From positions 1-45,106 of the forward strand of contig VBLP01000131.1 of assembly GCA_005887925.1 (NCBI GenBank): a stretch of DNA of 45,106 bases, read 5' to 3'. The notes under the pieces were generated by a model. The model was not told where the DNA came from and ran no database searches. It worked only from the letters and a program-made list of their open reading frames with translations. Shown one piece after another: positions 15,193-17,085 of this stretch. A program made the translations under genes and the position numbers. The DNA comes from Deltaproteobacteria bacterium (GTDB lineage Bacteria > Myxococcota_A > Polyangia > Haliangiales > Haliangiaceae). How positions within the stretch are numbered: the first letter of the stretch is position 1; every line of letters begins with the position of its first letter.

Positions 15193-15447
15193 ACTGCACA
15201 GATCGACCGCCGACGAGCGATCTGTACCCCGCACCCACCGCGAGCCCCGCCCGGCGCCGGCGCCGGCCACCGCAGGCGCGGGATCGACCGTGCGTGGCGC
15301 GATCGTGCGTGCACCTGCGCCTCGGTGTGACCAGGCGCAGGCAGTTCGCCGTCGGCGGTCGTCGCAGCTCGCCGGTTTGGCAATCCGCGGCGCGGGAATC
15401 GCGGTTGCACATGCTTCGAGCCATTCCAACCGATGAGGAGTCTTCCG

Positions 15448-16069
15448 ATGCGTAGCTACGCCCTCGTGCTGTGCGTGCTGCCCGCTCTGGTGCTGGCGTG
15501 CGGAGACAACCGGTCGCCCACCGGCGATGACGATATGGCCGTCGGTACCCACGATTCCGATCAGGGCGGCTCGGCGCGCTCGATCGCCGCCAGCCTCGAC
15601 ATCAACTCTCCCAGCTGCGACACCGCCACCGCCAGCTTCGAGGTCCTCGCGCGTCACCTCGACGACGCGAGCTCCGTGAGCAAGCTCAAGTGCCAGATCG
15701 CGTTCGACGACGGCGCCACCGCCGACGTCTGCCTGGGTGAGCACACGTTCGCGAGCGCGGGCGCTCACACGTTCACCGCCGACATCACCGACCTCGACAC
15801 CGGCGCGACCGCGCACGTCGTGATGACGCGGGTCATCGCGACGCCGCTCACCGTCGAGCTCACCGTCGAGGCGCCCGCGTGCGGCCTCGACGTCTCGTTC
15901 AGCGCCAAGCTCAGCACCGGCGCCGAGGTCCACGCGACCATGGAGCCCGCCGACAAGGTCGTCGTCCCGACCGTGTTCGGCCGCACCGGCCAGTTCCAGG
16001 CCCGCGAGGCCGCCGATCTGCGTCCGTCAGGTGTCCCGCACCGTCACCCTCAACTGCCCCTGCCCCTGA
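15448..16069 (+). CDS. Lipoprotein with reading-frame switch near its 3' end
   Basis: The start at 15448 is set by GAGGAG seven bases upstream and by the type II signal sequence MRSYALVLCVLPALVLACGD (lipobox Cys at residue 18). The mature part is a beta-rich, PKD/Ig-like protein with paired cysteines (SPSCDTATASFEV, LKCQIAFDDG, VCLGEHTF, PACGLDVSF). In the starting frame third-position GC is high to about 16000, then drops. From about 16005 the next frame has near-perfect third-position GC and ends ICVRQVSRTVTLNCPCP-stop at 16067-16069. I infer a one-base indel around 15990-16015. Without it the frame runs on into the rhodanese gene and would give an artificial fusion to 16302. The function is unknown. 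Confidence 0.6.
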
Positions 16070-16107
16070 CCTCGCCGGGCGGCGCCGCGCTTGCAGTCCG
16101 ATCCGGC

Positions 16108-16428
16108 ATGACCGCCGAGCGCATCGATCCCCACACCGCGCGGGCCGACATCGCATCGTCGAAGGCGTTGCTGGTGTGCGCCTATGACAGTCCGGAGAAG
16201 TGCCAGCAGTACGCCCTGGACGGCGCGATCGACCTCGACGAGCTCCGCCGGCGCGAGCCGAGCCTGCCGCGGCAGCAGGAGATCATCTTCTACTGTGCTT
16301 GACCCAGCGAGGCCACGTCCGCCCGGCGGGCGGAAGAGTATCGCGCCAAGGGATTCAGCAACGCCAGGGCGCTGAGCGGCGGCTTCGACGCCTGGAAGAA
16401 GTCGACCGCGACCCACGCCTCGGCGTGA
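16108..16428 (+). CDS. Rhodanese-domain protein, probable selenoprotein (Sec at in-frame TGA 16300-16302)
   Basis: A 106-residue, single-domain rhodanese from the ATG at 16108 (MTAERIDPHTARADIASSK). The usual rhodanese features follow in order: LLVCAYDSPEKC, LDGAIDLDELRRREPSLP, then EIIFYCA-[TGA]-PSEATSARRAEEYR and a tail GFSNARALSGGFDAWKK, ending at the TGA at 16426-16428. The internal TGA (codon 65) falls where relatives have the second Cys of the motif YCACPxEATSA. Homology on both sides is intact and in one frame. A hairpin fitting the bacterial SECIS rules lies just after it. The simplest reading is selenocysteine insertion; a Cys-to-stop mutation is the alternative. The reaction is probably sulfur or selenium transfer, or thiol redox chemistry. 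No start-proximal Shine-Dalgarno is obvious. Confidence 0.75.
16300..16334 (+). promoter_or_regulatory. UGA codon plus bacterial SECIS-like hairpin
   Basis: After the TGA at 16300-16302 comes a 22-base spacer to the apical loop. The stem is CCGCCC (16319-16324) with GGGCGG (16328-16333), extended by a T-A pair (16318/16334), and the loop is GGC starting with G. Published bacterial SECIS models ask for a short stem, a G in the first loop positions and roughly 16-37 bases from UGA to loop. All three are met. Confidence 0.65.
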
Positions 16429-16476: not shown

Positions 16477-17085
16477 ATGAACCCCACCGTCGAACTGCGC
16501 TGTCGCTGCGGTCAAGTCGAGGGCCGCGTCGCCGACGCTGCGCCTGACACCGCGAACCGCGTCGTCTGCTACTGCGACGACTGCCAGGCCTTCGTGCACC
16601 ACCTCGGACGCGCCGACCTGCTCGACCCCCACGGCGGCACCGACATCGTGCAGGTCGCGCCGGCCTCCCTCGCCTACACCCGCGGCACCGATCGCATCGC
16701 CGGCGTTCGCCTGGCCCCCAAGGGCCTGCATCGCTGGTACGCGTCGTGCTGCAAGACGCCGCTCGGCAACACCCTCGGCCCCGGCCTGCCGTTCGTCGGC
16801 GTCGTCGCGCAGGCCTTGCGCTCGGCCGACGACGCCTTCGGCCCGCCGCTCGGCGGCATCTACGGCAAGTACGCCGTCGGAGCCGCGCCACCCGGCACCA
16901 CCCGACCCAGCCTACGCCTGATCGGCCGCGCGCTGCGCAAGGTCGTCGGCTGGAAGCTCGGCGGCAGGACCTGGCCGCATCCGTTCTTCGATCGCACCAC
17001 GCGCGCCCCGATCTACCCGATCACCCTGCTGTCCCCCGACGAGCGCGACGCCCTGCGTCCGCTCTGCGGCCCCAGGCCCGCATGA
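16477..17085 (+). CDS. DUF6151 / GFA-like zinc protein
   Basis: A 202-residue soluble protein with AGGAG six bases before the ATG. It has three Cys clusters: ELRCRCGQVEG near residue 9, VCYCDDCQAF near 30 and YASCCKTPLGN near 90. These match the zinc-binding pattern of glutathione-dependent formaldehyde-activating (GFA) fold proteins. The overall length and the sequences between clusters fit the DUF6151 relatives of that fold. The biological substrate is unknown. It stands alone between the rhodanese gene (49 bp upstream) and a convergent hypothetical gene. Confidence 0.75.
   Translation: MNPTVELRCRCGQVEGRVADAAPDTANRVVCYCDDCQAFVHHLGRADLLDPHGGTDIVQVAPASLAYTRGTDRIAGVRLAPKGLHRWYASCCKTPLGNTLGPGLPFVGVVAQALRSADDAFGPPLGGIYGKYAVGAAPPGTTRPSLRLIGRALRKVVGWKLGGRTWPHPFFDRTTRAPIYPITLLSPDERDALRPLCGPRPA

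Follow-up and report, generated by a model that had tools for sequence, protein, structure and literature searches.

This locus raises the question of whether an in-frame TGA within a rhodanese-like reading frame is a stop codon, an error or a codon for selenocysteine (Sec). The window, i.e. the whole stretch of DNA analysed, comprises 45,106 nucleotides of contig VBLP01000131.1, from a genome assigned to the Haliangiaceae; its relevant features are collected in the table. The reading that we favour, with a probability of roughly 95%, is that the gene encodes a small rhodanese-family protein in which the UGA would be decoded as Sec by SelB and tRNA-Sec, as directed by a hairpin downstream of it; the chemistry of the C-x-U pair so formed is something that we infer.

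Features of the window discussed in the text, with the basis for each assignment
Feature	Position	Strand	Basis or detail
Lipoprotein-like reading joined in frame to the TGA (mechanical ORF)	15433-16302	+	ORF list, 289 aa
Rhodanese-like selenoprotein gene (predicted)	16108-16428	+	106 residues plus stop; PF00581 over cut-off; ends match 29 aligned relatives
Cys24 codon, LLVCAYD stretch	16177-16179	+	C24 in at least 90% of 30 aligned rows
Cys63 codon, FYC	16294-16296	+	Invariant in 30 rows; aligned with FYC of PDB 6mxv
In-frame TGA, read as Sec65 (predicted), C-A-U motif	16300-16302	+	TGA at the same codon in relatives
SECIS-like hairpin	16318-16334	+	Arms 16318-16323 and 16329-16334; extra pair 16324-16328; loop GGC 16325-16327
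Terminal stop TGA of rhodanese-like gene	16426-16428	+	Frame reading
DUF6151 protein, downstream neighbour	16477-17085	+	PF19648, 99.1 bits

Apart from the single TGA the frame is open from 16108 to 16425, and in the protein alignment it runs unbroken to a C terminus typical of the group of relatives that we term subfamily A. The product, with U for Sec, reads MTAERIDPH...EIIFYCAUPSEATSARRAEEYRAKGFSNARALSGGFDAWKK..., and no leader peptide was seen in it by eye. The Pfam rhodanese model PF00581 spans residues 42-98 (32.2 bits against a cut-off of 22.2, E 1.5e-7, profile positions 47-101 of 102), so that homology extends over the TGA and to both sides of U65, in agreement with the preliminary description of the locus, which had noted one frame with rhodanese homology on either side of the codon. 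Beyond the TGA, P66, A69, A75, G91 and G92 are invariant in the 30 rows of the protein alignment (A1). The mechanical ORF that ends at the TGA consists of a lipoprotein-like N terminus followed by the first 64 residues of the rhodanese-like protein, and automatic annotation would probably call this ORF, truncating the selenoprotein gene or fusing it, much as had been foreseen. The lipoprotein-like reading (15433-16069) itself seems, by eye, to change frame at about 16010, the other frame ending in VTLNCPCP with a stop at 16067-16069; the frame change is possibly an indel in the assembly.

A scan of 84,980 species genomes with the degenerate pattern [FL]YCAUPx(E/D)A, in which a TGA was demanded, returned 97 stretches, of which 31 encode the same short protein as the window and constitute subfamily A (consensus ...ALLVCAYDDxxK...L.GAI...QEIIFYCAUPxEA...GG.AW), about 45 are of an LYCAU type with LDVRxGRDW (type B), and the remainder are mostly other rhodaneses, with a few matches by chance. 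These numbers follow a rule-based sorting into 45 B, 29 A, 16 C and 7 rejected stretches, after which L114 and L136 were moved by hand to give 31 in A; at least L103, L134 and L145 (planctomycete type, filed in B), L126 (probably spurious, in C) and L158 (probably genuine, among the rejected) are misfiled. Members of subfamily A come from Desulfobacterota, Desulfuromonadales, Rokubacteria, Acidobacteria, Planctomycetes and Nannocystis, and the window protein is 33-52% identical to the 29 that were aligned with it; L114 and L157 are absent from A1 and present in the DNA alignment (A2), in which L157 and L111 are identical after the TGA.

Because that scan demanded a TGA, a search without this demand was also run, using a subfamily A profile against the 277 genomes of the class of Geomesophilobacter sediminis (E <=1e-12). 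It gave 91 matches in 79 genomes, with a TGA in 88; the three exceptions are G752:C57 (TAA), G812:C277 and G632:C17 (N-terminal half only). Fifty of the 91 were read (30 listed, together with 20 of the other 61 chosen by hand, two of them for lacking a TGA), and 48 have U at the C-x-U position, with TAA in one (L231) and Cys in one (L232); the 48 are not all subfamily A, the weakest matches being other rhodanese types. In the window's own class, 21 of 317 genomes match the window protein (E <=1e-6, at most 15 candidates scored per genome), and among the candidates scored a TGA occurs only in the window and in Nannocystis poenicansa (NZ_CP114040.1, one contig of 13.2 Mb; Nannocystis punicea, Myxococcota, in present NCBI naming), at the same codon, in RVIFYCAUPQDATAVRRAEEL. 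The conserved TGA, with homology on both sides of it, is far beyond chance.

Several relatives depart from this pattern in ways worth recording. L231 (G752:C57:56639-56944, minus strand) is a subfamily A paralogue with TAA at the Sec codon, in which the hairpin sequence and the remaining frame appear preserved; it may be a decaying copy, an error or a case of UAA recoding. Its genome also carries a TGA copy (L207) and one ARAGORN-confirmed tRNA-Sec with anticodon UCA, a second tRNA-Sec match over cut-off being read by ARAGORN as tRNA-Trp. In L243 (G873:C80), likewise of subfamily A, a further in-frame TAA follows the Sec site; this copy shares a contig with the tRNA-Sec of its genome, at a distance of about 16 kb. 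Within the family of the window (30 genomes, E <=1e-3), L020 (G019:C87) ranks next after the window in match quality; it keeps the LVCAY stretch and has FYSRWDGE, with neither Cys nor Sec, instead of the C-x-U loop; by its sequence it seems to be an A-like rhodanese that lost both active-site residues. The TGA-bearing matches read in that family search are other rhodanese kinds. We also considered a plasmid or phage gene and rejected it: the 20 plasmid records that match the window protein do so at below 60% identity, and the four that were read are all CxC; plasmids gave no match to the subfamily A member L179, and a search of phages gave none.

The stem after the UGA pairs UCCGCC with GGCGGA, six pairs to which a seventh, C-G, can be added, and the loop GGC starts 22 nt after the UGA, in accord with the minimum-energy fold and with the earlier account of a 6-7 bp stem and a G-starting loop at that distance. 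Taken as proof standing by itself, the window hairpin was rejected, being within what chance gives in GC-rich DNA. Its fold z-scores are -0.67, -1.86 and -1.03; among the 872 TGAs on both strands of the window, a bSECIS-like hairpin of at least 6 bp follows 213 (24%) and one of at least 7 bp, the length class of the window hairpin, follows 104 (12%); and in 20,000 synonymous recodings of the window peptide, with codon weights from three genes of its genome, the same six pairs arose in 13%, any hairpin of at least 6 bp in 38% and one of at least 7 bp in 24%.

The hairpin's weight as evidence comes from the relatives. In A2, which aligns 32 sequences without gaps after the UGA, 91.9% of 186 pair cells are standard, compared with 83.2% in shuffles, 24 cells are changed on both sides, compared with 10.3, and the covariation score is 0.285, compared with 0.141, none of 500 shuffles being as high by any of these measures. 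Weaker are the counts of pairs changed on both sides (3, with 23 of 500 shuffles as high) and of further pair types (8, with 29 of 500). When the partner is shifted by 1-3 columns, pairing falls to 24-50%, and RNAalifold, unaided, predicts the inner four pairs. At least five of the six pairs occur in the same register in 60 of 61 distinct subfamily A members (the window, rows of identical DNA and off-motif rows, at least L122 and L243, left out), where synonymous resampling, with codon weights estimated roughly from the G+C content of each locus, gave a mean of 23.4 and a maximum of 36 over 400 rounds; these relatives share descent, so that the counts are not independent events. The NF041203-type LYCAUP genes, described below, have a hairpin in the same register, at least five pairs being found in 50 of 60 other U forms (a set mixed with further types) against 7.7 expected under resampling; among Cys forms, a sample of five and too few to carry weight, the figure is none against 0.2 expected. 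In 49 of the 61 members the loop consists of GGUC and one further base; that of the window differs (CGGCG, or GGC with the extra pair). A G occupies one of the first two loop positions in all 61 and also in all five Cys forms, and the loop G thus does not tell them apart.

The window's genome, a draft of 12.2 Mb in 778 contigs that is 81% complete, holds the full set of genes whose lack had been named as evidence against Sec: selA (TIGR00474, 556.5 bits), selB (TIGR00475, 296 bits against a cut-off of 242, in an ORF of 633 aa), selD (TIGR00476, 319 bits) and a tRNA-Sec gene, selC (RF01852, 67.9 bits against a gathering score of 47), with anticodon UCA according to ARAGORN. The selD gene has an in-frame TGA of its own (GGGUAAK), which predicts at least one further selenoprotein in this genome; no hairpin of the same kind appears in a simple fold of the 42 nt that follow it. 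Of the 31 genomes in which the pattern scan located subfamily A, 29 have selB over its cut-off, G596 and G617 falling short.

How far does this evidence exclude simpler accounts of the TGA? An ordinary Cys rhodanese spoiled by a sequencing or assembly error, or by a nonsense mutation, would look similar in one draft genome, which is all that represents the window strain; a relative (L231) does have TAA at the site, and the apparent loss of frame in the lipoprotein-like reading near 16010 means that the stretch may hold errors. Against this account, which we regard as very improbable, stand the U that 48 of 50 loci and Nannocystis have at this position, the window frame that is intact to its family-typical C terminus, and the Sec machinery of the genome. 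The preliminary description had named two further findings that would tell against Sec here. As to reads with TGC or TGT in place of TGA, the Nannocystis gene and the 48 loci exclude a read error for the family, the question applying henceforth to the window strain's own reads; as to relatives with unrelated stop codons here, one was found, its genome carrying a TGA copy as well, and the 48 loci keep U. No more credible is the idea that the gene truly ends at 16302, with a truncated product or a lipoprotein fusion being made and the rest a decaying remnant. It agrees with the mechanical ORF and with the lack of significance of the window hairpin by itself; it is opposed by the five invariant residues after the TGA, by the TGA in 88 of 91 profile matches and by a hairpin kept in relatives beyond codon constraint. 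The insertion of Sec proposed in the preliminary description is thus supported by the conserved UGA, the register of the hairpin in relatives and the complete Sec machinery. Under this interpretation, SelB with Sec-tRNA would read the UGA at 16300 as Sec, directed by the hairpin.

What the Sec would do is a separate matter. Rhodaneses carry a persulfide on the Cys at the FYC position, and the position of Cys63 is, we presume, that of their catalytic Cys. In the mechanism that we propose, Sec65, two residues on from this persulfide-forming position, would complete a C-x-U pair in an active-site loop that would exceed that of an ordinary rhodanese by two residues; the pair would probably cycle via a selenenylsulfide (or a perselenide/persulfide), the enzyme acting as a thiol/sulfane-sulfur oxidoreductase in which Cys24, nearly invariant, may serve as the resolving residue. 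The C-x-U pair together with Cys24 suggests thiol/selenol redox or sulfane-sulfur exchange chemistry. It is possible, though on the unlikely side, that Sec is inserted and the protein nevertheless acts as an ordinary sulfurtransferase, in which Cys63 does all the catalysis and Sec is a tuned neighbour, an arrangement compatible with all that is said above of Sec insertion; Cys63 falls opposite the FYC of a structurally solved rhodanese-like protein (PDB 6mxv), and the GlpE and PspE models are matched by 21 and 1, respectively, of the 30 subfamily rows. The Sec at 48 of 50 loci read speaks against it, since it suggests a direct catalytic role, as does the loop after Cys63, which in the window protein is two residues longer than in 6mxv (rhodanese-like family protein; one sequence alignment). 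More doubtful, at the other extreme, is a distinct FYC-x-U selenoenzyme, a selenol-based reductase and not a sulfurtransferase, whose enlarged loop with C-x-U and Cys24 would reduce an oxyanion or persulfide and which would have come to a few myxobacteria by horizontal transfer.

With respect to known systems, rhodanese selenoproteins, CxU ones included, are already in print. The available part of a 2026 review (PMC13188914) gives rhodanese-like selenoproteins in five forms, of which form 3, credited to Zhang and Gladyshev 2005, has a CxU motif and the model NF041203; a CxU rhodanese form is among those tabulated in the corresponding part of PMC9312934, and rhodanese or sulfurtransferase selenoproteins are counted in those of PMC2398784, PMC1088965 and PMC5029168. 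For Anaeromyxobacter dehalogenans, PMC1794560, likewise available in part, gives 11 selenoproteins, with rhodanese not among them there. In titles and abstract openings, with few subscription papers included, we found nothing naming subfamily A or a myxobacterial rhodanese selenoprotein. The window protein shares with form 3, as set out in the available part of PMC13188914, a CxU at the rhodanese active site, being likened to it by motif and not by its exemplar TKB26178.1.

The window protein exceeds the cut-off of no NCBIfam model. Its best match is the NF041203 model (rhodanese_LYCAU, 'rhodanese-related (seleno)protein'), of whose 126 profile positions it covers only 64-119. The 55.6 bits scored fall short of the cut-off of 115, a result on which membership of this equivalog family was rejected and which indicates a sister subfamily; the cut-off is exceeded in none of the 317 genomes of the window's class, and all 30 rows of A1 match the model (best E 1.2e-21). 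The two types have in common the C-A-U-P motif, the rhodanese family and a single Sec, and differ in the N-terminal half, where the window has LLVCAYD and the NF041203 type LDVRxGRDW. A tree was drawn from 92 rows, namely 61 members of A, the window, 5 Cys forms and a random 25 of the 60 other U forms; in it, subfamily A and the window are set apart from the rest with support 94/98, the NF041203 type lying across this deepest drawn branch; the window's place within subfamily A is without resolution, and several Cys rows stand on long branches. By sequence, then, the gene belongs to an established kind, the CxU rhodanese selenoproteins, in a predicted sister subfamily whose window member NF041203 does not accept.

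The Cys homologues that had been expected at the Sec position do occur in CxC rhodaneses of the wider group, i.e. in L052 and L061 of the window's class, in L232 and on plasmids of Xanthomonas, Cupriavidus, Paraburkholderia and Caballeronia. Within subfamily A no Cys form was seen among the 50 of 91 profile matches read, the sole Cys locus there, L232, falling outside A in the tree. In Xanthomonas sacchari WP_043095768.1 the domain has YCACPNE, with Cys where the window has Sec; unlike the window protein, it is joined to a membrane protein according to its annotation (DedA family protein/thiosulfate sulfurtransferase GlpE), and the stem is not kept (2 of 6 pairs).

Other rhodanese kinds with an in-frame TGA were encountered alongside these. 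The first, with FYC-x4-U (FYCxxPxU) then xxxH, is found in the window's genus (L046, L047, L094, L095) and class (L093); it shares the in-frame TGA with the window and differs from it in that the Sec lies five residues after the FYC Cys and in a leader-like N terminus in L046, L047 and L093. In L047, L093, L094 and L095 a hairpin is present at roughly the same position, whereas L046 folds differently. By motif only, this kind is perhaps the rhodanese-like form 1 (UxxS) listed in the available part of PMC13188914. Another kind, HC(G/A)U(P/G)TDG(S/T)SARAALQL, occurs with a 7-bp hairpin in two genomes of the window's genus (L028 and L096), and in another family of the phylum a rhodanese with a TGA, VYCTUPNEASSARVAL, follows a membrane-like N terminus (L200, G583:C360). 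TsoB (NF045694, UxxxxU) is a rhodanese selenoprotein too, with two Sec and a rhodanese/DsbD fusion according to the table of PMC13188914, of which part was available; its model is matched weakly by 10 of the 30 subfamily rows and, at E <=1, not by the window protein.

The overall results correct a gene model at a place where automatic pipelines would probably truncate or fuse the gene. They also delineate a CxU rhodanese subfamily below the NF041203 cut-off, which is present in Desulfuromonadales and other former Deltaproteobacteria, in Rokubacteria, Acidobacteria and Planctomycetes, and in at least two genomes of the Nannocystis class, and in which the Sec form predominates at the loci read. 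The practical value of this knowledge lies in a cleaner family model and in a better-defined candidate for enzymology.
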